Assembly: GCA_029260715.1 (NCBI GenBank)
Contig: JAJDCS010000017.1
Location: 1-64,000 of the forward strand
Source: Phycisphaeraceae bacterium
GTDB taxonomy: Bacteria > Planctomycetota > Phycisphaerae > Phycisphaerales > Phycisphaeraceae
DNA length: 64,000 bases
Reading direction: 5' to 3'
The translations under genes were made by a program, and so were the position numbers. Numbering within the stretch: the first letter of the stretch is position 1; each line of letters opens with the position of its first letter. This document shows, one piece after another, positions 1,877 to 25,419 of this stretch. The notes below the pieces were generated by a model that saw nothing but the letters and a program-made list of their open reading frames with translations, had not been told where the DNA came from and made no database searches.

Positions 1877-2437
1877 TCATTGATGAGAATCCGCCACCGG
1901 GATTCGGTCTGTAGAGGCGTGGTCGGCGGCGTTTCGCATCGGGTCCAGCCACGCGATCAAGCCCGTTTTGTCTAGATAACCGCCCTTGCGCGCAATCTCA
2001 CGCAACTGTGCGTCCAGCACCATCAGTGTGGGCAACACCGCCACGCCGTACGCGTCCGCCAGTCGCTGCCCCGGCCCGGGCGCCGTTATATCCACGATAA
2101 CCGGCACAAACCCACCCCGGATGAACCGCCCCACCCCGGCGTCGGAAAGCACATGGCGAGACATCGACTTACACGGGCCGCACCAGTCGGCTGTGAATTT
2201 CACCAAGACCGGCTTGTTCGATTCCGTGGCGACCCGGCCGGCCTCGTCTAAATCCGTCAGCCAACCCACCGCGTCGTGCGCCACCCCCGCCTGTGTCGAC
2301 CGCCACCACACACGACCCACCCACAACACCCCCACCGCCACCACAACAGCCAGCATCGCCATGCGCAAGCCGCCGCCGGCGTTTGAAGCCGGTACGGCAG
2401 CCGCTTGTTGGCCGGGTGTTGTGTCAGACATAAACAT
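1877..2437 (-). CDS. Membrane-anchored thioredoxin-like protein
   Basis: A 186-residue protein with one transmembrane helix (about 25-44, MAMLAVVVAVGVLWVGRVWW) followed by a periplasm-facing thioredoxin fold. The redox motif WCGPC is at 85-89, preceded by PVLVKFTADW, and a cis-proline loop is visible as VLPTLMV near 133-139. The CGPC pair and the PTL loop resemble the C-terminal domain of DsbD and similar thiol:disulfide carriers; the exact partner is unknown. A second in-frame ATG lies at 2431. It is convergent with nothing obvious and is separated from transaldolase by 173 bases, so it is probably its own transcription unit. Confidence 0.78.
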   Translation of the reverse strand: MFMSDTTPGQQAAAVPASNAGGGLRMAMLAVVVAVGVLWVGRVWWRSTQAGVAHDAVGWLTDLDEAGRVATESNKPVLVKFTADWCGPCKSMSRHVLSDAGVGRFIRGGFVPVIVDITAPGPGQRLADAYGVAVLPTLMVLDAQLREIARKGGYLDKTGLIAWLDPMRNAADHASTDRIPVADSHQ

Positions 2438-2743
2438 CTATCCCCGCTACTGCATAACCAACTCAATACCCGCGTTGTTCCCCGAAAAAAAGCCTCACCC
2501 CAACAATTTCAGGCTTGGTTTGGGGTAACCACCCCGCCCCCGCGGTTATCGGCTGACAACCGCCCTCAGCCCATCGAACCAGCCAAACTCCCGCCCCACT
2601 TTCATACCCCCCGCGCTTCGGGTCGTACCGGTTACAACGATTAAAACGGCTGTCACGCCTGGCGCGGCTCGCGGTGGCGACGGTGCGTATAAGTCAAAAA
2701 CGCAATTATCCTCGCAGCCGATTCTGCCGATCATTTCCAAACC
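2438..2743. other. Divergent intergenic region
   Basis: The 306 bases between the divergent thioredoxin-like gene and the PilZ-fusion gene contain no supported gene. A short hairpin is visible (GCGGTT at 2542-2547 with AACCGC at 2558-2563). The sequence just before the plus-strand gene, GATCAT then nine bases then ATG, could be a -10 element of a leaderless transcript. Otherwise nothing recognisable. Confidence 0.35.
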
Positions 2744-3577
2744 ATGGCATGGATCGGTGCGCATTTTGCGATTGGGATGAGCTGCAGCGGCGCGATCGCC
2801 GGCGGCATCTGCCAACTCCGCGGCCGGGGGTGGAAGTCCGTGCCCGTGGCCATGCTCGCCGGCGGGCTCTGGGCTGTCGCGCCCGACCTGCCCCACACCA
2901 TCCGCCAAGACCTGCCCGACACGGTCTTCGCCTCCTGGTTCGGCGCCAAAGCCGCCACCATGTGGCTACACGAGCAGGGCAACTGGTTCTTCTTCCACAA
3001 ATGGCTCGACCAGCGGTACGGCGGCGACTGGACACTACCCCGTCTAGGCCTGTGGGGCATGGCATCGCTGATCGTTGTCTACAACACTATGGTCTACGCG
3101 CTGTTCCGCGCCAATGACATCAAAGCCCACAGCCTGGCGCGCCTCGAGTACCGCCTATACGCCCGGACCAAAGCGCACCGTGAAGTAAGCGGCGCCCTGG
3201 CCGCGGCGCAGCCCAGCGCTACCGACGATCAGCCTCTGCAAATGGAATCCGCACAGGACGCCCGCGCCCGCCGCAAGCACGACCGCCTCGACGCCGGCCA
3301 GCCCATCGCCGGCATGGCTGTTGACCCCGTGAACCACACACTGCGGCCCTTGCAAGACGCCTCATTGATCAACATGTCCGACGGCGGCATGGCGATCTCC
3401 ACCAGCACCACCGTCGAGCCCGGCGCCACGCTGCACGTGCGGCCCGCCGGCGACACACGGGACACCTCGCTGATCAACGCGGTCGTCCTCGAACAGATCC
3501 CACAGGACAGCGGCTACAAGCTACGCTGCCGCTCCCTGGGCTCGCCCACACCCACGCAGGTCTTCAAAGCCGCTTGA
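2744..3577 (+). CDS. Membrane protein with C-terminal PilZ domain
   Basis: 277 residues. The N-terminal half is hydrophobic (segments about 8-22, 33-48 and 103-122) and contains APDLPHTI at about 46-53, which weakly recalls the YdjM/DUF457 membrane hydrolase family. The C-terminal half carries the two PilZ signatures for cyclic-di-GMP binding: RxxxR (R177-R181, in RRKHDR) and NxSxxG (N210, S212, G215, in INMSDGGMAIS), at normal spacing. The likely role is a membrane effector that responds to c-di-GMP; the output is unknown. A Shine-Dalgarno sequence is not obvious. The PilZ call is fairly firm; the N-terminal family is tentative. Confidence 0.72.
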   Translation: MAWIGAHFAIGMSCSGAIAGGICQLRGRGWKSVPVAMLAGGLWAVAPDLPHTIRQDLPDTVFASWFGAKAATMWLHEQGNWFFFHKWLDQRYGGDWTLPRLGLWGMASLIVVYNTMVYALFRANDIKAHSLARLEYRLYARTKAHREVSGALAAAQPSATDDQPLQMESAQDARARRKHDRLDAGQPIAGMAVDPVNHTLRPLQDASLINMSDGGMAISTSTTVEPGATLHVRPAGDTRDTSLINAVVLEQIPQDSGYKLRCRSLGSPTPTQVFKAA

Positions 3578-6542: not shown

Positions 6543-7328
6543 ATGATCTTGAACCCAATCTGCGGATTAGTAGCTCTTGGCCTCCTCATCGCCGCAGGCT
6601 GCGCCGCAAACGACACCGCCGCACGCATGGACCGCATGCACATGGCCTACAAACACAGCGACTACCGCGAAGCCTACCAGCAAGCCCTAACCGTCATGCG
6701 ATCCGGCAACGCCCAAGAAAAATACGAAGCCGCATACATGGCCGGCATGAGCGCCTACAAGCTCAACGAAACCAACATCGCCCTGCCCCACCTCACGCTC
6801 GCCGCCCAGAGCCAAGACCAAACCATGGCCGGCGACGCCATGACCGTACTAGGCGTCATCTACAGCGACCAGAACCGCTACGACCGTGCCGCCGCCGCGT
6901 TCCTCAAAGCCGCCGAACTATTAACAACTCCCCAAGAGCGAGCCAACGCATACCTCCACGCCGCCGCCGCCCAGCAGCGACTAGGCCTACGCGCCCAAGC
7001 CCAAACAAACTTCAGCCTCGCGCGAAGCCTCTCAACCGACACCCAATTCAGACAACGCGCCACTAACGAATCACAAGCCACCGGCTACACCCTCCAAGCC
7101 GGTGCCTACAACGACCCCGCCAACGCCCACCGCGCCGCCGACACGCTCGCCAACCAAACCCAACATCTAAACCTAGGAAAACCCCGCGTCATCCAAACCA
7201 TCGATGGCTACGGCAAAGACCTCTACCTCATCCAGCTAGGCCGATTCTCCTCACTCGCCACCGCCTCCGCCGCGAAAGAACGGCTCCGCCCGACCACGGC
7301 GATGATCGTGCCGCTGGGGACGCACTGA
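6543..7328 (+). CDS. Lipoprotein with TPR-like repeats and SPOR domain
   Basis: A 261-residue lipoprotein when started at the ATG at 6543: MILNPICGLVALGLLIAAGC has a hydrophobic core and a lipobox (AAGC) with the lipidated cysteine at residue 20. The middle is Ala-rich and helical, with TPR-like units (SDYREAYQQAL, NRYDRAAAAFLKAAEL). The last 80 residues form a SPOR domain (YTLQAGAYNDPANAHRAAD ... LYLIQLGRF), which binds denuded peptidoglycan at division sites. The open frame begins at 6447, but residues before 6543 are encoded by a dispersed repeat, so they were excluded. An envelope or cell-division role is inferred from SPOR. Confidence 0.8.
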   Translation: MILNPICGLVALGLLIAAGCAANDTAARMDRMHMAYKHSDYREAYQQALTVMRSGNAQEKYEAAYMAGMSAYKLNETNIALPHLTLAAQSQDQTMAGDAMTVLGVIYSDQNRYDRAAAAFLKAAELLTTPQERANAYLHAAAAQQRLGLRAQAQTNFSLARSLSTDTQFRQRATNESQATGYTLQAGAYNDPANAHRAADTLANQTQHLNLGKPRVIQTIDGYGKDLYLIQLGRFSSLATASAAKERLRPTTAMIVPLGTH

Positions 7329-7338
7329 TATAGCAGCC

Positions 7339-7414
7339 GTAGGGCAGGTCATTTGACCTGCCTCTAACTGGAACATGCGTACGGGAAAAAGGCAGGTCCA
7401 TGACCTGCCCTACG
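7339..7414. repeat. Paired AGGTC palindromes (type B repeat)
   Basis: Two palindromes, GGCAGGTCatttGACCTGCC and GGCAGGTCcatGACCTGCC, are separated by about 26 bases, and the outer ends GTAGGG and CCCTAC also pair. A related paired element with GTCAGGTC arms is at 48362-48432. It lies exactly in the gap between two convergent genes, so it could also act as a terminator. Confidence 0.65.
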
Positions 7415-7424
7415 CCCCTACAGC

Positions 7425-9017
7425 TCAACCCAGCCGATCCGTTGAAACGTGGTAGTGAGGGTCTTCGGAGATGTTGACTTCCACGAATTCGCGGGCTTTG
7501 TCGAGCAGTTGGCGGCATTCCGCGCTGAGGTGACACAGGTGTAGCCGCTTGCCGGCGTTGTTGTAGCGTACCGCCAGTGTGTTAATGGCTTCGAGACCTG
7601 ACTGGTCCAGGACGCGGGTGTAATAGAAGTCGATCACGACGTCGTCGGGGTCGTTGGCCGGGTCAAAGAGGTCTAGAAATCTCGTGACAGATGCGAAAAA
7701 AAGCGGGCCGTGCATCTGGTACATCTTGCTGCCGAACTCATTGAACTTCACATCGACGGCTAAGTACGTGGCCTGCTGCCATGCGAATACGATCGCCGCG
7801 ATGATGACACCAATAAGAACGGCTAGCGCTAGGTTGTGGGCGAAGACCGTGACGCCGGTGACAACGATTATCACGATCAGGTCACTCCATGGGATCTTGC
7901 GGTACATGCGCAGGCTGGCCCAAGCAAAGGTGCCGACGACGACCATGAACATCACCCCGACCAGCGCCGCCATGGGGATGACCTCAATGATTGGCGACAG
8001 GAACATGATGAACACCAGCAAGAATAGGGCCGCGGCGATCCCCGACACCTGCCGCCGTCCGCCGGACTTCACGTTGATGAGGCTCTGGCCGATCATGGCG
8101 CACCCGCCCATGCCGCCGAACATCCCGGTGACGATGTTGGCCATGCCTTGACCAATGCACTCGCGGTTGCCCCGGCCGCGCGTCTCGGTAATTTCATCGA
8201 TCAAACTCATGGTCATAAGCGACTCGATAAGACCCACAGCGGCGAGAATGAGCGAGTAGGGCAGGATAATGCGGAGCGTCTTAAAGCTCAGAAGCGTCCC
8301 CCAAGTCATCGGCGCGACGGGGAACTCAAACGCCGGGAAGCCACCACGAATTGACCCAGCCAGGTCGTAGACCGTGCGGGTCTCGAGCCCAAACACCGGC
8401 AGGAGGTATACCGAGACCAACGTGACCACCACGATGGCGACAAGCGTCGCCGGTAAAGCCCGGGTGAGCTTCGGCAGTAGCGCGATGATGACCATCGTTA
8501 GGGCGACAAGCGCAAGCATCACCGCGAGCATCTGGCCACCCATCCAGCGTGTTCCCTGCTCGATAAGGTTGCCATCGATATCCAAGACAGTGAAGGGCAG
8601 CTTGAAGCTGTCGAGCTGAGCCAAAAAGATCACAATGGCCAAGCCGTTAACAAAGCCTAGCATGACCGGATGCGGCACAAGACGGATGAGCTTGCCTAGC
8701 CGGGCAAGCCCCACGCCGATCTGAATCAGGCCCATCAGTACCACCGCCGGAAAGACGTACTCAACGCCGTGATCCTTTACAAGTACAACGATGACAACCG
8801 CCAGCGCACCGGTTGCCCCTGAGATCATGCCCGGGCGACCCCCGACCGCCGCTGTGATTAGTCCCACCATGAACGCGGCATAAAGCCCCGTCAGGGGTGA
8901 CAACCCGGCAATAAGAGCGAACGCGATCGCCTCGGGCACAAGTGCCAATGCCACCGTCAAACCCGAGAGTAACTCGTCCTTAAGGCCGACCGTGTTTTTT
9001 TTAAAAAAATCTAACAT
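7425..9017 (-). CDS. SulP-family anion transporter with STAS domain
   Basis: A 530-residue inner-membrane transporter of the SulP (SLC26) family, which carries sulfate, bicarbonate or other anions. The N-terminal signature is visible ([20 protein letters not shown] ... [11 protein letters not shown]), then about a dozen membrane segments, and a cytoplasmic STAS domain from about residue 430 ([16 protein letters not shown] ... [20 protein letters not shown]). The substrate is not readable from the sequence. The start is the ATG at 9017; the open frame continues to a TTG at 9077 inside the sucC terminator, which is an unlikely start. No carbonic anhydrase gene accompanies it. Confidence 0.9.
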
Positions 9018-10969: not shown

Positions 10970-13900
10970 ATGGTCATCACCTCACTGAGCAAAGGCTTCT
11001 CAAAAATATTCGGCTCGCGCAACGACCGGCTCGTCAAGGCATACGCCCAACGCGTCCGCGACATCAACGCGCTCGAGCCCCAAGCACGCGCCCTAACCGA
11101 CGCACAACTCAAAGCCAAAACCGCCGAGTTCCAAAGCCGCGTCGCCGACGGCGAAAAAATACTCGCCATCATGCCCGAGGTGCTCGCCACCGCGCGCGAA
11201 GCCATGGACCGATCCGTCGGCATCCGCAACATCTTCAACCCCGAATACAACTTCGACCCCACCACACTCCCCGAACCCGCACAAGCCCTATACCACCAAG
11301 TCGAAGAAGAGATCGCCCAAAAAGTGATGGCTGAAGAACTGGGCTGCAACGACATGGTCCCCGGCTGGCAGCAGGTAGACATCCCCAACGAGCTATACGA
11401 CGCGGTGCGCGCCCTCTACCCCAAGAGCAAGCCGCCCTTCCGTGCTCGGCCGTTCGACGTGCAACTTATCGGCGGCATGGTCCTGGGCGAGGGCAGGATC
11501 GCCGAGATGAAAACCGGCGAGGGTAAGACCATCGTCGCGCCCCTGGCGTGCTACGTCGCCTGTGTCGAGGGGCTCCAGTGCAACGTCGTCACCGTCAACG
11601 ACTACCTCGTACAACGCGACCGCGACTGGGTCTTCCCCTTCTACTATCACCTGGGCCTAACCGTCGGCGCCATCCACCCCTACCACATGCAACCCCCCGA
11701 AGCCAAGCAGCAAGCCTACCACTGCAACGTCGTCTACGGCACCAACAGCGAGTTCGGCTTCGACTACCTCCGCGACAACATGAAGCTCTCCCCCGCAGAG
11801 CAGGTCCAGAAGCACCGCGACTTCTGCATTATCGACGAGGTGGACTCCATTCTCATCGACGAAGCGCGCACGCCGCTGATCATCTCCGGCCCCGCGCACG
11901 ACGACGCGCCCCGCTACGGCCTGGGCGACACCATCGCCGCACACCTGATGCAGAAACAAAGGCAGTGGGACGCCGCGGATGCTCAAGTCCAGCAGAGCCT
12001 CATGAGAATCAAAGGCCTGGAGGGCGACATCCGAAACGCACGCGACAAGACCAAAACCCCCGCCATGCGCGAGGAAATGAAACGCCTCCAGGAACAACTG
12101 CCCGCCCTCGAAGCCGAACGCGACAAGCACACCCAGTACTACGAAGTCGAACGCGAACGCAAAGCCGCACACCTCACCCACCAGGGCATTGCCGAAGCCC
12201 AAAAAGAAGCAGGCATCGGCTCGTTCTACGTCGGCAACAACATGGACTTCCCCCACCTGCTCGAAAACGCACTGCGCGCCCACGTCATCTACAAACGCGA
12301 CAAGGAATACGTCGTCCAAGGCGGCGAGGTCGTCATCGTCGACGAGTTCACCGGCCGGCTCATGATCGGCCGCCAGTGGTCCGACGGCCTGCACCAAGCC
12401 GTCGAAGCCAAAGAAAAAGTCAAGATCAAGCAAGAAACGCAGACCCTCGCCACCGTCACCATCCAGAACTTCTTCAAGCTCTACAAGCGGCTCGCCGGCA
12501 TGACCGGCACGGCCATCACCGAAGCCACCGAGTTCAACGAGATCTACAGCCTGGACGTGGTGTGCATCCCCACCAACGTGCCCGTGGTGCGCCGCGACCG
12601 CGACGACCTAATTTTCTTGTCACAAAAAGACAAGTGGGAAGCCATCCTCGAAGAGGTCCGCCGTGTACACGCCGTGGGCCGCCCCGTCCTCGTGGGCACC
12701 ACCAGCGTGGAAAACTCCGAGCTACTCTCACAACTGCTCGCCAAGAAACACGCCATCAAGCACGAAGTCCTAAACGCCAAGCAGCACGAACGCGAAGCCC
12801 ACATCGTCGAACACGCCGGCCAAATCGGCGCCGTCATGATCGCCACCAACATGGCCGGACGCGGCACCGACATCAAGCTCGCTCAGATCGACCGCGCCAC
12901 CATCGTCCGCCACTGGCAGCAGCACAACCTGCTACCCAAAGACGCCACACCCGACATGACAGACGACCAACTCGTCACACTGTCATACCGCCACCAATGG
13001 GCCTCAAGCCAAGGCCTAAAACTCAAGGACGTCGAAGACAAATCTGACGACGACATCAAGCTCGCCCTGCTGCGCCAGTGGGTCATCGATGAAACTTTTT
13101 ACGAGCCGGCCAAAGCACAAAAAATGACCGCCGACCAGTGCATGGCCGCCATGGACCAGGTGCCCGAGTTCATGATCCACCGCCTCACCGTGCACACGCG
13201 TATCGAGGAGATGGGCGGCCTACACATCATCGGCACCGAGCGCCACGAAGCGCGACGCATCGACAACCAGCTCCGAGGCCGCGCCGGACGCCAAGGCGAC
13301 AACGGCTCGTCACGATTCTTCATCTCGCTCGAAGACGACCTGATGAAAATGTTCGCCGGCAAGACCACCATGGCCGCGCTCTCCAAACTGGGCATGAAAG
13401 AGGGCGACGCCATCGAGCACCGATGGATCACCAAGAGCGTCGAACGCGCCCAGCGCAAGGTGGAGGAACGCAACTACGAAATACGAAAAAACCTCCTCGA
13501 ATACGACGAGGTCATGGAGCACCAGCGCAACACCTTCTACGGCATCCGCCAGGAGGTGCTAGAGGGGCGAAACGTCCAGCAGTTGATTTTTGATTACATC
13601 GCCGACGCCGTCGACGACGCCACCGCCACCTACCTCGACCCCGACTACGTGCCCACCCAGATCGCCGAGTGGTGCCGCCAATCTTTGGACATCAGCGTCG
13701 AACCCGGCAAGCTCCGCGACGACGACCTAACCGAACTCCAGCGGCTGATCCGAAAAGAAGCACACGCCGAAATAAGCCAAATCATCGACGTCACACTCGG
13801 CGAGTACATGTCCCACGACCTGCCGCCCGACGAGTGGGACCTGCGTGGCCTAAGCCAGTGGGCCATGAGCCGATTCAGCGTCGACCTCAAGCAAAACCAG

Positions 13901-15013
13901 CTTCGACAGATGAACGTCAACGACGTCAAGCCCCTGCTCACCGAAACCGCACACGAGCAAATCGACCGCAAAGACCTATCCGGCGTGGCCCGCTTCATCG
14001 AGCCCCACTACGCGCAACGCCAACTCGCCGAGTGGGCGCGCAACAAGTTTGAGATCGAGCTAGCCCCCGAGGAACTCGCCGGCCTCGAAAACGAACAGAC
14101 CGCCGACCACATCCTCAAAAAAGCTCGCGAAGCCTACCAGCTACGGGAGCTGACCTACCCCGTCCAGTTCATGCTCGAAATGGTCTTCCAAGCCGCCCAG
14201 CAAGACGGCCAGTGGGCAGCTCAACAACTCGTCGCCTGGGCCAAACAGCGCTACGAGATCGACTGGACCGTCGAACAGGTCGTCCAGATCCCACCCAGCG
14301 AACTGCAACAACAACTGCTCGACGCCGCCAAGCAATGGCTCCAAGGCGGCAAGCTCGAAGCATTGATAAACAAAGCCATCGCCGATCACGCCGACACCGC
14401 CGCCCTGGCCCAGTGGGCGACCGAACGCTTGGCTCAAAAAATCGAAGCCGATGAACTGGAGAACCTAGACGCCGACGCCCGGCGAGCGTTGCTCATCGAA
14501 AAAGGCCGAGCCCTCCTACGCGCCGAGCTGACCCAGCTCGAACGCTTCGTCCTGCTCCAAATCCTCGACGCAAGCTGGAAAGACCACCTCTACGCCATGG
14601 ACCAACTCAAAGACTCCGTCGGCCTGCGCGGCTACGCCGAGCGCGACCCGCGCATCGAGTACAAACGCGAAGGCGCCAACCAGTTCACCCAGATGCGCCG
14701 CACCGTGCGCGACCGCGTGACGGACCTCATCTTCCGCGCCAAGCTCACCGCCAACGTCCAAGCCCGAAGCGTCTACAACGAACAAGAAGCAAGCCACGCC
14801 GACCCCGGCAACACCGTCCAACGTTCCGCCGCCGCCACCGCAACCGCCGGCTCCGAACAGCAACAAGCAGACCTCGACGCCGCCGAACAAGCCGGGGACG
14901 GCCAGTCCGCCCGGTACCAATCCCGCAAGCAGCGCCGTGCCGCAGCCGCAACCGCACCCGCCAAGAAACCCGGCCAACCCCAGCAAAGAAAACGCAAACG
15001 AAAGAGGCGATAA
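10970..15013 (+). CDS. secA: Preprotein translocase ATPase SecA, expanded form
   Basis: SecA drives proteins through SecYEG with ATP. This one has 1347 residues against about 850-900 in most bacteria. Walker A is GEGKT at 183-187 and Walker B DEVD at 289-292; AGRGTDIKL and GGLHIIGTERHE mark the second nucleotide-binding domain. Three expansions are visible: a charged coiled-coil insert in or near the preprotein cross-linking domain (about 325-400), an insert of about 100 residues between AGRGTDI and GGLHIIG, and a helical region (about 890-1190) in which a W-centred module occurs about four times. Near the end, the family stretch SWKDHLYAMDQLKDSVGLRGY is intact. The usual C-terminal zinc-binding cysteines are missing; the tail is basic (RKRKRKRR). 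GAGG precedes the ATG. No other sec gene is adjacent. Confidence 0.97.
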   Translation: MVITSLSKGFSKIFGSRNDRLVKAYAQRVRDINALEPQARALTDAQLKAKTAEFQSRVADGEKILAIMPEVLATAREAMDRSVGIRNIFNPEYNFDPTTLPEPAQALYHQVEEEIAQKVMAEELGCNDMVPGWQQVDIPNELYDAVRALYPKSKPPFRARPFDVQLIGGMVLGEGRIAEMKTGEGKTIVAPLACYVACVEGLQCNVVTVNDYLVQRDRDWVFPFYYHLGLTVGAIHPYHMQPPEAKQQAYHCNVVYGTNSEFGFDYLRDNMKLSPAEQVQKHRDFCIIDEVDSILIDEARTPLIISGPAHDDAPRYGLGDTIAAHLMQKQRQWDAADAQVQQSLMRIKGLEGDIRNARDKTKTPAMREEMKRLQEQLPALEAERDKHTQYYEVERERKAAHLTHQGIAEAQKEAGIGSFYVGNNMDFPHLLENALRAHVIYKRDKEYVVQGGEVVIVDEFTGRLMIGRQWSDGLHQAVEAKEKVKIKQETQTLATVTIQNFFKLYKRLAGMTGTAITEATEFNEIYSLDVVCIPTNVPVVRRDRDDLIFLSQKDKWEAILEEVRRVHAVGRPVLVGTTSVENSELLSQLLAKKHAIKHEVLNAKQHEREAHIVEHAGQIGAVMIATNMAGRGTDIKLAQIDRATIVRHWQQHNLLPKDATPDMTDDQLVTLSYRHQWASSQGLKLKDVEDKSDDDIKLALLRQWVIDETFYEPAKAQKMTADQCMAAMDQVPEFMIHRLTVHTRIEEMGGLHIIGTERHEARRIDNQLRGRAGRQGDNGSSRFFISLEDDLMKMFAGKTTMAALSKLGMKEGDAIEHRWITKSVERAQRKVEERNYEIRKNLLEYDEVMEHQRNTFYGIRQEVLEGRNVQQLIFDYIADAVDDATATYLDPDYVPTQIAEWCRQSLDISVEPGKLRDDDLTELQRLIRKEAHAEISQIIDVTLGEYMSHDLPPDEWDLRGLSQWAMSRFSVDLKQNQLRQMNVNDVKPLLTETAHEQIDRKDLSGVARFIEPHYAQRQLAEWARNKFEIELAPEELAGLENEQTADHILKKAREAYQLRELTYPVQFMLEMVFQAAQQDGQWAAQQLVAWAKQRYEIDWTVEQVVQIPPSELQQQLLDAAKQWLQGGKLEALINKAIADHADTAALAQWATERLAQKIEADELENLDADARRALLIEKGRALLRAELTQLERFVLLQILDASWKDHLYAMDQLKDSVGLRGYAERDPRIEYKREGANQFTQMRRTVRDRVTDLIFRAKLTANVQARSVYNEQEASHADPGNTVQRSAAATATAGSEQQQADLDAAEQAGDGQSARYQSRKQRRAAAATAPAKKPGQPQQRKRKRKRR

Positions 15014-17712: not shown

Positions 17713-17887
17713 TACGGATTCGGATTAAATTCGAGTTGCTTAGAGAAATTAGGCTCTGTATTAATTGCAATTCATATAATTGAAGAAAAAAAAATATTAC
17801 AAAATCTGTTTCTGGTAATATAATCCCTGCACATTGGCCCTATGCCGTTGTTGGCCGTGGTCGCATGAAAATTTTCGATTAAGGACC

Positions 17888-18505
17888 ATGAAAATGCTAA
17901 GACTAGCGATCGCAGGAACAATTGCACTTCTATGTATCACACAGATTTCATCGGGTGTTACTCTAACCGTAGCCGGACGGACTTGGGAGGAGTTCAACGG
18001 CCACTGGTACTCACTTACTGATGAGCATGGGACTTGGGCTGAAAATGAAACAGCGGCTATCCAGGCCGGTGGTCACCTCGTAACGATCAACGACGACGCG
18101 GAAAACACCTTTGTTCTGAATTTTGCTGACGGCCTTACATCGCGAAACTTCGGAGGCGCAAATCAACGCATTGCATGGATCGGGCTCCGCAATGCAATCG
18201 GCTGGGCGTCCGGAGAACCCGTTACTTATTACCGAGGGATTGGGACTTCACCGGGCGGCGGACCGCATTGGTTTATCAACACCGCGAGCTATGTTTCAGC
18301 CGGCTCTACGCCCCACCCAGGGGACTGGGGAAACCATAATATTCACAACGATCTTTTTGATTACCAACTCCGTGGGGTCATCGAGCGAAACACCATCCCC
18401 ACAGCCATCCCCGAACCCCTCACCGCCACACTAAGCCTGATTGCCGTGGGCGTCGTTGGAATTTGTGCGGTTGGCGCACGCCGCAATACACCCATTGACT
18501 TGTAA
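17888..18505 (+). CDS. Secreted C-type-lectin-like protein with PEP-CTERM tag
   Basis: 205 residues: signal peptide (LRLAIAGTIALLCITQISSG), then a C-type lectin-like fold (FNGHWYSLTDEHGTWAEN, then AGGHLVTINDDAENTFVLNF and AWIGLRN), and a C-terminal PEP-CTERM tag (IPEPLTATLSLIAVGVVG, then ARR). Such tags are cut by an exosortase during export to the envelope or matrix; no exosortase is in the window. Lectin folds of this type often bind sugars, but the calcium residues cannot be confirmed. AAGGA lies close to the ATG at 17888; the ATG at 17894 has the better spacing. The frame upstream to 17834 was dropped because it lacks a signal. Confidence 0.82.
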   Translation: MKMLRLAIAGTIALLCITQISSGVTLTVAGRTWEEFNGHWYSLTDEHGTWAENETAAIQAGGHLVTINDDAENTFVLNFADGLTSRNFGGANQRIAWIGLRNAIGWASGEPVTYYRGIGTSPGGGPHWFINTASYVSAGSTPHPGDWGNHNIHNDLFDYQLRGVIERNTIPTAIPEPLTATLSLIAVGVVGICAVGARRNTPIDL

Positions 18506-19207: not shown

Positions 19208-20128
19208 ATGCTCGCGATGGCTGTCATGCGTCTAATCCAACTGCCGCTGATCCTGGCCGTGGTCTTTGTGGTCACGTTCGCGCTGGCGTGGGTCGTGCCG
19301 GGCAACCCCCTGGAGAAGCCCGAGGGCCAACGCCCGCCCGTCGAAGTCCAGCAGGCCATGCTCAGGCAGTACAACCTCCACAGCCCATGGGCATTCGCAG
19401 CCGGATACCTCAAAGGCGCAGCCAAAGGCGACCTGGGCCCCAGCCTGCAATACCGCAACCACCGGGTGAATGACATCATCGCAAGCGGCCTACCCGTGAG
19501 CGTGCTGCTGGGCGCGGCGGCGTTGGGGCTGGCGTTGCTGCTGGGCGTGGGCGCGGGCGTCGTCGGGGCGCTGCGCAAGGGTTCCGTGCTGGACCAGGCC
19601 AGCCTGGGCTTGGCGCTGGTCGGTGTGAGCCTGCCCGCTTTTGTCACCGGGTCGATCCTGCTGGTGCTGTTCAGCGGCCTATTCAAGTGGCTGCCCGCAG
19701 GCGGGTGGGGCAGGCCGTCGCAGATCATCCTCCCCGCGCTGACACTCAGCGCCGCGCCCGCAGCCTACATCGCCCGGCTCATCCGCATGGGCCTCGAAGA
19801 GGTTATGCAAAGCGATTACATCCGCACCGCCCGCGCCAAGGGGCTGTCCGAACGCCGCGTTGTCCTGCGCCACGCGCTCAAAGTCGCCTTCCTGCCCGTA
19901 CTCAGCTTCCTGGGCCCCGCGGCCGCGGCCGTCTTGACAGGCTCGTTCGTCGTTGAGCAGGTCTTCGCCATCCCCGGCATGGGCGAGCACTTCGTCAACG
20001 CTGTGCTCAACAAGGACCAATTCCTGATCCTCGGCGTGGTGCTGGTCTACGCGATGATGCTGATTGTGTTCAACTTGATCGTGGACCTGGCCTACGCGTG
20101 GGTCGACCCTCGCATTGAATTGGGGTAA
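19208..20128 (+). CDS. ABC transporter permease, OppB/DppB type
   Basis: 306 residues with six membrane segments and the permease EAA-type loop (DYIRTARAKGLSERRVVLRHA, about 198-218) followed by GSFVVEQVFAIPGMG, which is diagnostic of the first permease of oligopeptide/dipeptide/nickel importers. The usual neighbours (second permease, two ATPases and a binding protein) are absent on both sides. The start follows CAATA by five bases and has no Shine-Dalgarno sequence. It may work with components encoded elsewhere or be a remnant; the frame itself is intact. Confidence 0.9.
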   Translation: MLAMAVMRLIQLPLILAVVFVVTFALAWVVPGNPLEKPEGQRPPVEVQQAMLRQYNLHSPWAFAAGYLKGAAKGDLGPSLQYRNHRVNDIIASGLPVSVLLGAAALGLALLLGVGAGVVGALRKGSVLDQASLGLALVGVSLPAFVTGSILLVLFSGLFKWLPAGGWGRPSQIILPALTLSAAPAAYIARLIRMGLEEVMQSDYIRTARAKGLSERRVVLRHALKVAFLPVLSFLGPAAAAVLTGSFVVEQVFAIPGMGEHFVNAVLNKDQFLILGVVLVYAMMLIVFNLIVDLAYAWVDPRIELG

Positions 20129-20215: not shown

Positions 20216-20536
20216 ATGCGCCCGATTTTACTATTAGCAGCCAAACACCTAGACCTGTCCCAGCGGCTCGAAGAGGCCCTGACGCTCACCGTCGTGGGCA
20301 TGTTGGTGGTCTTCACCGCTTTGTGCCTCACCGCCATCGCCATTGTCCTGTTAAAAAAACTGGTCGGCCAAGACGCCGCCACCAGCGCAAGAACCCCCTC
20401 GCGCACCGCCCCCGCGGAGGGTGACGGGATTGAAGACGCCCACCTGAAGGTGGTGCTCGCCGCCGCGGCCGCCACCGCCTTGGGGCGACAGGTACGGATC
20501 AACAAAATTACCCCGGCACACCCGCCAAGCCCTTAG
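20216..20536 (+). CDS. Sodium-pump decarboxylase gamma (OadG-like) subunit
   Basis: 106 residues with one transmembrane helix (LTVVGMLVVFTALCLTAIAIV, about 24-44), a linker and a short C-terminal part containing LAAAAATALG. This layout is that of OadG/MmdD proteins, which hold the biotin-dependent decarboxylase together at the membrane. It heads a co-directional group with a biotin carrier (80 bases later) and the beta subunit. TATCAT lies seven bases before the ATG and there is no Shine-Dalgarno sequence, so the mRNA may be leaderless. The identification relies on both its own pattern and the neighbours. Confidence 0.75.
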   Translation: MRPILLLAAKHLDLSQRLEEALTLTVVGMLVVFTALCLTAIAIVLLKKLVGQDAATSARTPSRTAPAEGDGIEDAHLKVVLAAAAATALGRQVRINKITPAHPPSP

Positions 20537-20616
20537 GAGACGCTACCCACCAAGACCGCTACCCGGGGGTGTCTCGGTCTTTCACCCGCTATAACACTTT
20601 CACCAAGGGATCGACC

Positions 20617-20955
20617 ATGAAGCTTCGGATCACCGTGCAAGGCGTGTCATACGACGTAGGCGTCGAGGTCTTAGACGACACCGCCGCACCACCAAGCGGC
20701 GCGCCAGCAGCCGCCGCCACACCCGCACCCACCGCCAGCCACGGCGCCCAAGTCACCAGCCCCATCGCCGGCAATGTGTTCGACATCCGCGTCAAGCCCG
20801 GCGACAGCGTCAAAGTCAACGACACACTGGTCGTCATCGAAGCCATGAAGATGGAGTCCAACATCGCCTCGACCCACGACGGTGTTATCAAAGAAATCTG
20901 CGTCAAAATCGGCGACAGCGTGACACACGACCAAGTCCTGGTGAAGTTCCGCTAA
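20617..20955 (+). CDS. Biotin carboxyl carrier protein of a decarboxylase
   Basis: 112 residues: a short beta-rich start (MKLRITVQGVSYDVGVEVL), a flexible Ala/Pro linker (about 23-42), and a biotinyl domain with the attachment motif EAMKME, biotin going on K78. In sodium-pump decarboxylases this carrier shuttles CO2 from the carboxyltransferase to the membrane beta subunit. The start at 20617 follows AAGGGA at good spacing; the open frame continues upstream to 20569 without support. A biotin ligase gene lies 1.8 kb downstream in the same orientation. Confidence 0.9.
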   Translation: MKLRITVQGVSYDVGVEVLDDTAAPPSGAPAAAATPAPTASHGAQVTSPIAGNVFDIRVKPGDSVKVNDTLVVIEAMKMESNIASTHDGVIKEICVKIGDSVTHDQVLVKFR

Positions 20956-21022
20956 CCCCGGCCCCCGGAAGTCCCCGACCCGGAAATATCAGGCTTGAAC
21001 GCACGCCTTCAATGCAACACCC

Positions 21023-22621
21023 ATGATCGAAGTCCTCGTTAACTACATCCTCTCCTCCGGCTTCGGACAGGTTACCGCCGGCAACACGCTGATGATCGTC
21101 ATCGGCTTGCTGTTCATCTTCCTAGCCGTCAAAAAGGGCTTCGAGCCGCTGCTGCTCGTGCCGATCGGCTTCGGCATGATCGTGGGCAATATCCCCTACC
21201 CAGCAGATCAGCTATCCCTCAGCGTGTACGACGGCCCGCCAGACCCCGCTTACACCGATAAAGTACAACTGCCCGACACCGTCTTGCTGCGCACGCGCCA
21301 AGGCCAGTATGTCCGCCTGCCCGCAGAGGCTTTGTGCCCGCCCAGTTCGCTCGATTCATACAACGGCCAACCCGCGCTCCCCACCGCCATCGTCGACACC
21401 AGCCACCTATACGACCAGCCCATGGCCGTGCGCGCGGCAAAATTCGCCAAACCGGCCCCGGTGTACGAACCCCAAGACCCACAGGCGTTCCTGGAAAACC
21501 CACGCGCGCACCTAAAACAACTCAAACCAACCGCCACGCGCCCCGACCAGCTCCAACCCGGAGAAGTCGTGCTGCTACGCCTCAACCAGGGCAAACTCGC
21601 ATTAGCAGACCTGCGCGGGCTAAAACCCACGGACACCCCGCCCGACACCGGCTGGCCCCTGGTAGTCTCCAAGCAACAGCTCAACCCGTGGAACGCTAGC
21701 GTCCTGTGGTTCCTCTACCGCGGCGTCAAGTGGGGCTTCTACCCAGCTTTGATCTTCCTGGGCATCGGCGCCATGACCGACTTCTCCAGCCTGCTTTCCA
21801 ACCCCAAACTGTTCTTGTTAGGCGCCGCGGCGCAAGTGGGCATCTTCGGCGCCCTGATCATGGCGGTGCTGATGGGCTTCGAACTCAACGAGGCTGCCAG
21901 CATCGGCATTATCGGCGGCGCCGACGGGCCAACGGCCATCTTCGTCACCGCGCGACTCGCGCCCGAAATGCTCGGGGCGATCGCACTCGCCGCCTACTCA
22001 TACATGGCCCTGGTGCCCGTCATACAGCCGCCCATTATGAAGCTGCTCACCACCCAAGCCGAGCGGCGCATCCGCATGAAACGCCCGCCCCAAGTCTCTA
22101 AAAACGTTAAGCTCATGTTCCCGCTCGTCGGGTTCCTGCTCACCTCTTTCATCGCGCCCGGCGGGTTGGCCCTGCTAGCCATGCTCTTCTTTGGCAATCT
22201 CCTCAAAGAATCACTCGTCACCGAACGCCTCGCCAAAACAGCGCGCACATCCATGATCGACGTCGTCACCATCCTGCTTGGCCTGACCGTCGGTGCCACC
22301 ACCACCGCCAGCAACTTCCTCACGTGGGAAACCGTCGGCATATTCGTGCTGGGCGCCTTCGCGTTCTCGATCGCGACCGCGGGCGGCGTGCTGTTCGCCA
22401 AGATCATGAACCGCTTCACCGCCGACCCGCTCAACCCGCTCATCGGCGCCGCCGGCGTGTCAGCCGTCCCCATGGCAGCACGCGTCGTGCAAGTAGTCGC
22501 CACCAAGGAAGACCCACACAACCATCTGCTCGAACACGCCATGGGCCCCAACGTCGCCGGCGTCATCGGCTCCGCCGTTGCCGCGGGCGTGCTGCTAAGC
22601 AAACTCGCCACCGTGTCCTAG
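21023..22621 (+). CDS. Sodium-pump decarboxylase beta subunit (OadB-like), with large insert
   Basis: 532 residues against about 375-430 in the family. The beta subunit decarboxylates carboxybiotin in the membrane and exports sodium. The conserved core is present: GFEPLLLVPIGFGMIVGN near the start, GIGAMTDFSSLLSNP, then GGADGPTAIF with the key aspartate D301, and the C-terminal NPLIGAAGVSAVPMAARV. Between about residues 62 and 220 a hydrophilic insert replaces a short loop; it is rich in Pro and Gln and shows two similar strand patterns (VLLRTRQGQYVRLP, VLLRLNQGKLALAD). The carboxyltransferase alpha subunit is not in the window. Confidence 0.92.
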   Translation: MIEVLVNYILSSGFGQVTAGNTLMIVIGLLFIFLAVKKGFEPLLLVPIGFGMIVGNIPYPADQLSLSVYDGPPDPAYTDKVQLPDTVLLRTRQGQYVRLPAEALCPPSSLDSYNGQPALPTAIVDTSHLYDQPMAVRAAKFAKPAPVYEPQDPQAFLENPRAHLKQLKPTATRPDQLQPGEVVLLRLNQGKLALADLRGLKPTDTPPDTGWPLVVSKQQLNPWNASVLWFLYRGVKWGFYPALIFLGIGAMTDFSSLLSNPKLFLLGAAAQVGIFGALIMAVLMGFELNEAASIGIIGGADGPTAIFVTARLAPEMLGAIALAAYSYMALVPVIQPPIMKLLTTQAERRIRMKRPPQVSKNVKLMFPLVGFLLTSFIAPGGLALLAMLFFGNLLKESLVTERLAKTARTSMIDVVTILLGLTVGATTTASNFLTWETVGIFVLGAFAFSIATAGGVLFAKIMNRFTADPLNPLIGAAGVSAVPMAARVVQVVATKEDPHNHLLEHAMGPNVAGVIGSAVAAGVLLSKLATVS

Positions 22622-22637
22622 AACAACTTGCATCATT

Positions 22638-22676
22638 GGGTGCCACTGGTCCGCCTTAGGCGGACCCGCCAGTGCG
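22638..22676. repeat. Dispersed palindromic repeat (GGGTGCCAC family)
   Basis: GGGTGCCACTGG then the perfect palindrome TCCGCCTTAGGCGGA and the right arm CCCGCCAGTGCG. It lies between the beta-subunit gene and biotin ligase and supplies part of a spurious upstream extension of the ligase frame. Confidence 0.6.
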
Positions 22677-22720
22677 AAACAAACACAATCTTCATACAGA
22701 ACTTAAAGCACCCCACCCCC

Positions 22721-23482
22721 ATGCTCCGTTTCGTATACAACCAACTCCCCTCCACCAACGACCAAGCCAAGCTGCTCATCGCCGACCACCCCAGCCAAAC
22801 ACTGCTCGTCACCGCCAACACGCAAACCGCCGGGCGCGGACGCTCCGGCCAAGCATGGCAATCACCCCACGGCGGCGCGTGGTTCAGCATCGCCCACCCC
22901 ACCAAGCTCGAACCTAGCCGATACGCACCCGCCTCCGTGCTCGCCGGGTGGACAGTCCTACAAACAATCCAACAAACCACAGACCGCGGCCTGCCCCTAA
23001 CCCTCAAGTGGCCCAACGATGTGCTCGCCGACAACCAAAAAATCGCGGGCGTGCTCTGCGAAATGGCCCTGCCACCCGCCCCGCCGAGCAGCACCCCGCC
23101 CACGCTGATCATCGGCGTGGGCATCAACGCCAACTTCGCCCCCGACCAGCTCGGCCACGACCTGCGAACACCCGCCACCACCCTCCAGCACCACACCGGC
23201 CGTACCACCGACCTGCCCACACTCATCACGCAATGCGCCGAACAAATCCAACAACACATATCACAACTAGAACAACAAGGCTTCACCGAAGAAATACGCC
23301 TCGCCATCGAGCCCCACCTCGCCTGGCTAAACAAACCCATCGCGCTGCGCCAAGGCCAAACCACCATCACCGGCACCTGCCAAGGCCTAGACGACCACGC
23401 CCGCTTGCTACTAAAAAAAGACAACCGCCTCACCGCCTACGACGCTGGCCAAGTCGAACAAATCACCGAGGCAGCAGTATGA
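22721..23482 (+). CDS. birA: Biotin--[carboxyl carrier protein] ligase
   Basis: About 253 residues. It attaches biotin to the lysine of carrier proteins through biotinyl-AMP. The signature residues are seen: LPSTND at the start, QTAGRGRSGQAWQSP (about 35-49), LKWPNDVLADNQKIAGVL, and GVGINANF. There is no N-terminal DNA-binding domain, so it is a group I, non-repressor ligase. The ATG at 22721 was chosen because the longer frame (from 22628) crosses a repeat. Its place directly after a biotin carrier and OadB suggests that it biotinylates K78 of that carrier. Confidence 0.92.
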   Translation: MLRFVYNQLPSTNDQAKLLIADHPSQTLLVTANTQTAGRGRSGQAWQSPHGGAWFSIAHPTKLEPSRYAPASVLAGWTVLQTIQQTTDRGLPLTLKWPNDVLADNQKIAGVLCEMALPPAPPSSTPPTLIIGVGINANFAPDQLGHDLRTPATTLQHHTGRTTDLPTLITQCAEQIQQHISQLEQQGFTEEIRLAIEPHLAWLNKPIALRQGQTTITGTCQGLDDHARLLLKKDNRLTAYDAGQVEQITEAAV

Positions 23483-24260: not shown

Positions 24261-25289
24261 TTATACCGCTTGGCTATCCGCTCCATCGCGCCACCCGCCC
24301 ATGCGCTCACCCCCACGCCGCGAAAACACCACCAGCATCGCCACCCCAGCCGCCACCATCACCACGCTCAGCCACTGCCCACGCGTCAACCCCAACCATT
24401 GGAAACCAAGGTGCGAGTCCGGCTCGCGGTAAAACTCACCCACAATCCGAAGCACCCCGTAACACAAGCACGCCAACCCCGACACCACGCCCGGCTTCCT
24501 GGGCCGAGCCCACGCCACCGCCAAGATTACAAACAGCAGCAACCCCTCCAGCAACCCCTGATAAAGCTGCGACGGGTGGCGAGGCGTCAGCAGCGGCTCC
24601 ACCACGCGGATCACCGCCTCGTTGTTCCGCTGAATCAGATCGATAATCGCCGGCAGCGGGTACGCCCCGTCCTCCGCCATCGCCGCGCGTGCCGACGGGA
24701 TCGCGTCGAGCTTCGCCACAAGCTCGGTTAGCCGCTCGTAGCTCCACGTGTACATCTCCTGCGGGAACCGCACCGCCCACGGCAGGTCCGCCCCCGCCGC
24801 TCGCCCGTACAACTCGCCGTTAATAAAGTTCGCCATCCGCCCCAGGAACAACCCAGGCCCCGCCGTGAACGCCATCAGGTCCACCGTGTGCAAAAACCGC
24901 CCGCCGCTGCCGCTACCACCGCTCCGCCGCGCGAACCAGTAGCAACCCAGCACCGCCCCGATAATCCCCCCGTGGCTAGCCATGCCCCCGTGGTTGATCG
25001 CGAGCAACTCCCAAAAAGGCGCGCTGCCGCTGAACGTCCAGATCGTCTCGGGCCGGTAGAACAACGCGTACCCCAACCGCCCGCCTACGACGATCCCCAC
25101 CGCCACCGCCACCACAAAATCGCCCACCCGCTTAAGCTCAATCCAAGACCCGCCACCACGCACCACACGCCGGATCAGCCAATACGCCACCAAAAACCCC
25201 AGCAGATACGACAGCCCATACCAGCGCAGGCCAATATCACCCACCCGGAACACAAACGGATCAACCCTGTGAAGATAAACCGCCAGCAT
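24261..25289 (-). CDS. lgt: Prolipoprotein diacylglyceryl transferase
   Basis: About 342 residues with seven predicted membrane segments. It moves diacylglycerol from phosphatidylglycerol to the lipobox cysteine of prolipoproteins, the first step of lipoprotein maturation. The family signatures are visible: INHGGMASHGGIIGA and GRMANFINGELYGR. A loop of about 50 residues after the signature (TWSYERLTELVAKLDAIPSA and on) is longer than in E. coli. The start at 25289 (MLAVYLHRVDP) fits; the open frame upstream adds a Gly/Pro-rich stretch. One likely client, the SPOR lipoprotein, is in this window. Confidence 0.93.
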   Translation of the reverse strand: MLAVYLHRVDPFVFRVGDIGLRWYGLSYLLGFLVAYWLIRRVVRGGGSWIELKRVGDFVVAVAVGIVVGGRLGYALFYRPETIWTFSGSAPFWELLAINHGGMASHGGIIGAVLGCYWFARRSGGSGSGGRFLHTVDLMAFTAGPGLFLGRMANFINGELYGRAAGADLPWAVRFPQEMYTWSYERLTELVAKLDAIPSARAAMAEDGAYPLPAIIDLIQRNNEAVIRVVEPLLTPRHPSQLYQGLLEGLLLFVILAVAWARPRKPGVVSGLACLCYGVLRIVGEFYREPDSHLGFQWLGLTRGQWLSVVMVAAGVAMLVVFSRRGGERMGGWRDGADSQAV

Positions 25290-25419
25290 AATGCGTTGCC
25301 CCAACCCCGTAGGTCCGGGCCCGCCCGGACACATCGACTACAGACAAGGGTTAAAGCTTATCAAGAATGCGTAGATTGGGTGCCGCTAGCGAAGAATAGG
25401 AATCTATTACTCGGGACGA

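Follow-up and report, generated by a model that had tools for sequence, protein, structure and literature searches.

In decarboxylase pumps, alpha is usually taken as the subunit that decides the substrate. A carrier and a carboxyltransferase encoded separately are normal in methylmalonyl-coenzyme A (CoA) and glutaconyl-CoA decarboxylases (PMC7274780), the pump subunits are split over two loci in Xylanibacter (PMC11575231), and in the characterised oxaloacetate decarboxylase the tail of gamma binds alpha (PMC7274780); these and the other papers given by PMC number are cited from partial texts. In the open-access literature we found no paper on oxaloacetate decarboxylase in Phycisphaerae. Here we analysed a gene row at positions 20216-23482 of a 64,000-nucleotide stretch from a Phycisphaeraceae bacterium (the window), which belongs to contig C9 in a 3.32 Mb assembly comprising 44 contigs and 96.5% complete. 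From sequence comparison we consider it probable that this operon and an unlinked alpha gene on contig C38 together specify an oxaloacetate-type Na+ pump, or such a pump working in reverse, with an origin in a pump of the methylmalonyl-CoA decarboxylase type.

The initial annotation described gamma, carrier, beta and birA in a row without a carboxyltransferase, and the family matches of the four open reading frames (ORFs) bore this out:

20216-20536, + strand: gamma subunit (OadG/MmdD-like), 106 amino acids (aa); PF04277, 3.6e-9, 37.6 bits, cut-off 27
20569-20955 (ORF; likely ATG at 20617), + strand: separate biotin carboxyl carrier protein (BCCP), 112 aa; PF00364, 7e-19, 67.9 bits
21023-22621, + strand: beta subunit, 532 aa; PF03977, 2.2e-150, 501 bits; TIGR01109, 3.1e-141, above the cut-off
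22628-23482 (ORF; likely ATG at 22721), + strand: birA, biotin protein ligase; TIGR00121, 1.5e-41, 142.5 bits, cut-off 83.1; also matched by PF03099 and PF02237 of Pfam

To account for the absent alpha gene, it had been supposed either that alpha is encoded elsewhere or that the pump uses an unusual CO2 donor. The genome was searched for a carboxyltransferase, and the PF02436 (PYC_OADA) profile gave exactly one match:

C38:119417-120979: alpha, 520 aa, intact ORF; PF02436, 141.5 bits; PF00682, 53.2 bits

The first supposition was thus correct; the unusual donor, for which we found no support, was rejected as unneeded because of the alpha on C38. This protein consists of an HMGL-like and a PYC_OADA domain, ends behind the latter and has no biotin domain; the genes behind it read, by eye and recall, as those of trigger factor and clpX. 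A search of the genome with PF01039, the type to which we take GcdA to belong, yielded no more than two matches, each of half length (65 and 75 bits), which fits AccA/AccD; the MmdA-type proteins of relatives score 614-643 bits, and no MmdA, GcdA or 12S was found by it. The idea of an MmdA/GcdA-type alpha in the window genome was accordingly rejected, the only PF01039 matches being acetyl-CoA-carboxylase-like halves. Since there is a single PYC_OADA match and none of the MmdA/GcdA type, the alpha on C38 is the only candidate carboxyltransferase for the carrier. A further case that had been raised, an alpha gene beside a second complete copy of the group, was looked for and not found: the two OAD_beta matches in the genome (96.5% complete) belong to a single ORF, of which they are separate pieces, and the beta in the window is the sole one found.

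The alpha and the carrier align with residues 4-439 and 499-613, respectively, of PDB chain 5ks8_C, so that the pair spans most of a single fused PycB subunit. The alpha carries the motifs RDGHQS, IKDMA and LHSHCT, which we take to be the metal and catalytic motifs and which are conserved. Roughly 50 interdomain residues, within residues 298-357 of this alpha (L010 5418-6980), are absent from the solved relatives. The carrier has the biotinylation motif EAMKMES, aligns with positions 472-582 of the 582 of the oadA model TIGR01108 and further matches PDB 1dcz and 2d5d; its N-terminal segment matches the OadA stretch directly ahead of the OadA biotin domain.

To see how alpha and pump are distributed, we compared 61 genomes, the window's own (G000) and 60 relatives. 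OAD_beta matches were present in 15 of them, and 14 carry the beta type of the window; G028 carries only a second type, to which the additional betas G014b and G028b were assigned. An alpha orthologue, 55-81% identical to that of G000, was found in all 14 genomes with this beta type (own included) and in 6 of the 47 without it (Fisher, p = 1.7e-9; all Fisher p values given here ignore kinship, e.g. G005 and G034 share one genus). This count excludes a divergent copy in G060 (29%), which lies adjacent to a carrier and a biotin carboxylase in a pyruvate-carboxylase-like trio, and the full-length pyruvate carboxylases that G016, G017 and G027 have instead of alpha. Thirteen of these 14 genomes have alpha on another contig or, where the genome is a single contig (G005 and G034), more than 1 Mb away; the G033 assembly lacks the sequence upstream of beta. 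The fourteenth, G039, which belongs to another family of the order, has an alpha orthologue (66%) directly upstream of gamma-BCCP-beta.

The window beta matches the solved structures PDB 6iva/6iww (1.8e-104) and is of the membrane decarboxylase/Na+ carrier type. Of ten functional positions checked, whose roles are described for the Salmonella enzyme (PMC7274780), it keeps nine (E40, D203, Y229, R304, N373, G377, S382, N412 and S419 in Salmonella numbering); these nine are conserved in 14/14 betas of this type, including the Na+-site residues D203, S382 and N412. A large insert of domain-E type behind the second membrane helix was rejected as a novelty, because it is located where the Salmonella structure has domain E, a poorly conserved domain missing from some organisms (PMC7274780). 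The spacing between the GNIP and LIFLGIGAMTDF motifs is 132-202 residues in the window's beta type versus 33 in the second type, which is insert-free, about 375-395 aa long, keeps N311 and is followed by a tiny gamma-like ORF of 46-56 aa (L053 of G014, 7181-8365; L058 of G028, 1950-3188). A structure prediction for beta, made from two sequences only, reached a mean pLDDT of 34.5. The window gamma has one transmembrane helix (hydropathy maximum 2.75) followed by a C-terminal helix-strand tail. Such a membrane helix was found in 13/13 genomes with beta (19-residue hydropathy 2.45-3.04) and in 0/3 without beta (1.52-1.78; Fisher, p = 0.0018), G033 being left out as its gamma is unreadable.

The near relative G032 (metagenome assembly Planctomycetota bacterium Dive96_bin3.198), whose beta is 75% identical to that of the window, gave ratios of nonsynonymous to synonymous change (pN/pS) of 0.19 for alpha, 0.23 for beta and 0.28 for the carrier, and gamma (0.46) and birA (0.52) are less constrained; these values are rough, silent sites being near saturation.

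The origin of the operon is indicated by its surroundings, which in the window are as follows:

19208-20128, + strand: oppB permease, upstream neighbour; PF00528
23555-24163, - strand: small membrane protein in the interval between birA and lgt; Pfam 8xMP, sub-threshold
24261-25334, - strand: lgt, downstream anchor of the syntenic block; PF01790 and synteny

Thus no carboxyltransferase adjoins the row on either side. In seven relatives (G005, G014, G020, G025, G026, G029 and G034) the order is mmdA-gamma-BCCP-beta-birA-CoA-transferase, the CoA-transferase being assigned by eye. Two of the mmdA-type proteins of the comparison set, those of G005 (partial) and G021, were checked against NCBIfam, and their best match was TIGR01117 (mmdA) with 751 and 764 bits, below the cut-off of 998.8. 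The block of G020 reads oppB-mmdA-gamma-BCCP-beta-birA-CoA-transferase and that of the window and G032 oppB-gamma-BCCP-beta-birA, with lgt beyond in both cases; the operon of the latter two therefore lacks mmdA at one end and the CoA-transferase at the other. In the three genomes of the window clade (G000, G004 and G032) mmdA was not found and oppB adjoins gamma. Methylmalonyl-CoA mutase (PF01642) had no match in G000 and was not found in G004 and G032 either. Among the beta genomes the mutase is present in 8/8 with mmdA and in 0/6 without it (G000, G004, G011, G022, G032 and G033; Fisher, p = 7.8e-4 for 13 genomes). That test omits G033, a 71% complete assembly whose contig begins at beta, in which mmdA and the mutase were not found and the CoA-transferase is kept. 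The alpha and beta trees were poorly resolved, and the only grouping used was one of the beta tree (95/100) in which G000, G004 and G032 join G026, a genome with mmdA; it points to loss of mmdA in the window clade rather than primitive absence. G011 and G022 would have undergone losses of their own. G039 carries its mmdA on another contig, which would allow for more than one ancestral gene order.

The linked ligase had been taken to suggest a dedicated biotinylation step, a suggestion that gained no support. birA lies directly 3' of beta in 13/13 same-family genomes with this beta type and stays beside the carrier in G009 and G013, two genomes without beta; it was not found in 16 kb around the G039 locus. 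The linked birA is an old, inherited member of the operon and need not be dedicated. In G022 (L055) an ORF ahead of gamma (at 3059) resembles, by eye, the biotin synthase gene bioB.

Taken together, the window lineage would have inherited an operon of the methylmalonyl-CoA decarboxylase type from which mmdA and the flanking CoA-transferase disappeared, the mutase being lost as well, and the pump would now depend on the one transferase that was retained, that of oxaloacetate/pyruvate type. This alpha, held at the membrane by the gamma tail and the N-terminal segment of the carrier, would transfer CO2 from oxaloacetate to the carrier-bound biotin with release of pyruvate; beta would decarboxylate the carboxybiotin with expulsion of Na+, and BirA would biotinylate the carrier. 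In the reverse mode, pyruvate would be carboxylated at the expense of the Na+ gradient.

Oxaloacetate decarboxylase, PycB and 5S all act at the pyruvate/oxaloacetate pair, which for this reason is likely the substrate of alpha; the curated models do not separate oxaloacetate decarboxylase from PycB or 5S for this protein. The window genome yielded neither phosphoenolpyruvate (PEP) carboxylase nor a full-length pyruvate carboxylase, and an anaplerotic use is therefore possible. PEP carboxylase does not track the system in the family: G005 and G034 have mmdA, yet no PEP carboxylase was found in them, and G011 and G022 have the enzyme without mmdA. Such pumps reportedly ran in reverse in vitro (Dimroth and Hilpert 1984, as cited in PMC10090949), this direction was put forward for Nitrospina (PMC3578206), and mutants back it in Halomonas (PMC7545133); the window pump may likewise produce oxaloacetate instead of consuming it.

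Several observations weigh against an oxaloacetate-type pump served by this alpha. The alpha is above the cut-off only for the PycB domain model PRK09282 (459 vs 402); it falls below those for oadA TIGR01108, a model that includes the biotin domain (443.6 bits vs 756.5), and for 5S (351 vs 827). It has Ser (SYTTSPVH), as in PycB 5ks8, where OadA 2nx9 and 5S 1rqb have Cys (CYT), and among the 20 alpha orthologues only that of G003 has Cys there. The window gamma scores 31 bits with the NCBIfam oadG_fam model, below the cut-off of 36.05, and the position of Asn311, named essential in the Salmonella beta (PMC7274780), is T, S or G in 14/14 betas. Six of the 20 alpha-bearing genomes (G001, G003, G009, G013, G021 and G028) are without this beta, three of them 99% complete; in G003 a small carrier was found only near its biotin carboxylase. 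In G009 and G013 (99% complete each) oppB, carrier and birA stand at the same place, gamma is a peptide of 46-54 aa consisting of the tail only, and no beta was found. The alpha and carrier must have another use in these two genomes, which weakens a strict pairing of alpha with beta.

G021 (70% complete) has mmdA, gamma and carrier (L133 7395-10001) at a locus without beta, its alpha lying elsewhere, and the membrane helix of its gamma is replaced by a soluble segment; this set with its unlinked alpha looks like a soluble transcarboxylase. As G009, G013 and G021 keep alpha and carrier without beta, the two are evidently useful without the pump, which suggests a carboxyl-relay kit in shared use. 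In G003, G009 and G013 (L134, L135 and G013:C22) we also saw a biotin/lipoyl match in frames of 1214-1304 aa, and the frame of G009 reads, by eye, like a 2-oxo-acid dehydrogenase E1 with a lipoyl domain. A solitary carboxyltransferase of this kind is not unique, because a Parabacteroides plasmid also encodes a free-standing one of 525 aa without a biotin domain, in a 13.5 kb stretch that holds no pump gene.

The pump-less genomes, together with the preference of alpha for the PycB model and the failure to find PEP carboxylase or a full-length pyruvate carboxylase in the genome, fit the view that alpha and the window carrier are mainly a split pyruvate carboxylase, in which the sole, AccC-like biotin carboxylase charges the carrier, alpha carboxylates pyruvate and beta only drains carboxybiotin or is secondary. 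We consider this unlikely. The one PF02785 match of G000 lies on C27, about 1 kb from another carrier gene and not beside alpha, whereas the trio of G060 is adjacent; moreover, the conserved beta and the membrane gamma of the window clade would be left unexplained.

An oxaloacetate-type pump with the alpha on C38 also has to be weighed against an ordinary methylmalonyl-CoA decarboxylase whose carboxyltransferase went undetected, for instance an mmdA in an assembly gap. The incomplete, 44-contig assembly and the mmd-type operon of seven relatives would allow for it, but the expected site is sequenced in all three genomes of the window clade, with oppB next to gamma, and neither mmdA nor the mutase was found in any of them, which makes this explanation very improbable. 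We give just as little credence to the operon being a decaying remnant. The missing ends of the operon, the complete absence of beta at the same place in some relatives and the weaker constraint on gamma and birA would agree with decay; against it, the four ORFs are intact, the functional residues are kept and alpha, beta and carrier have pN/pS values of 0.19-0.28.

Accepting the oxaloacetate-type pump as the best explanation, the comparison suggests that a pump may have switched substrate when it lost one carboxyltransferase and came to depend on a second that the genome already encoded, and that the same carrier is able to outlive the pump. More tentatively, this planctomycete family might possess one carrier/beta/gamma set with interchangeable carboxyltransferases, MmdA and the 5S/OadA-like alpha, from which lineages shed modules; we found no description of a carrier shared in this way in the open-access literature. 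If this were true, the full set could be a transcarboxylase, membrane-bound and Na+-coupled, that connects methylmalonyl-CoA, oxaloacetate and Na+, and module loss would have led to an oxaloacetate pump in the window clade, G011 and G022, to a soluble transcarboxylase with a helix-less gamma in G021 and to a soluble alpha-carrier pair in G009 and G013. For annotation, the lack of a linked carboxyltransferase need not mean that a set of pump genes is incomplete, and the operon alone could mislead to the label methylmalonyl-CoA decarboxylase.

Other features of the window were noted in passing. A scan for transcription signals, which says nothing on co-transcription, gave 8 terminators, close to the 6.8 of the background, and 5 promoters versus 1.8, all weak. 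Upstream, 10970-15010 (+ strand) encodes a SecA of 1347 aa, far above the usual length, whose SecA_DEAD match is split in two (the best stretch covering residues 156-523), and 17834-18505 (+ strand) a secreted protein whose C-terminus is PEP-CTERM-like by eye.

Compared with the known systems, the window genome differs from glutaconyl-CoA decarboxylase in that no GcdA of the PF01039 type was found in it. With the two-subunit pyruvate carboxylase PycA/PycB it shares the best-scoring solved relative by sequence of alpha and carrier, 5ks8, but a second, dedicated biotin carboxylase was not found. The transcarboxylase 12S/5S/1.3S of Propionibacterium also has a free-standing 5S-like carboxyltransferase and a small separate carrier; unlike it, the window system has a membrane pump, its alpha does not reach the 5S cut-off and 12S was not found. 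The separate carrier and the gamma/delta-carrier-beta operon, headed by mmdA in seven relatives, are those of methylmalonyl-CoA decarboxylase (Veillonella, Propionigenium, Xylanibacter), whereas mmdA and methylmalonyl-CoA mutase were not found in the window genome. The Na+-site residues of beta, the helix and tail of gamma and the HMGL/PYC_OADA carboxyltransferase resemble the oxaloacetate decarboxylase Na+ pump of Salmonella, Klebsiella and Vibrio, from which the window system differs by its separate carrier, an alpha unfused to a biotin domain and encoded on another contig, the birA behind beta and the ~50 extra interdomain residues of alpha. Dispersed subunits and separate carriers are already known; the exchange of carboxyltransferases and the loss of modules across a family would be the new part.

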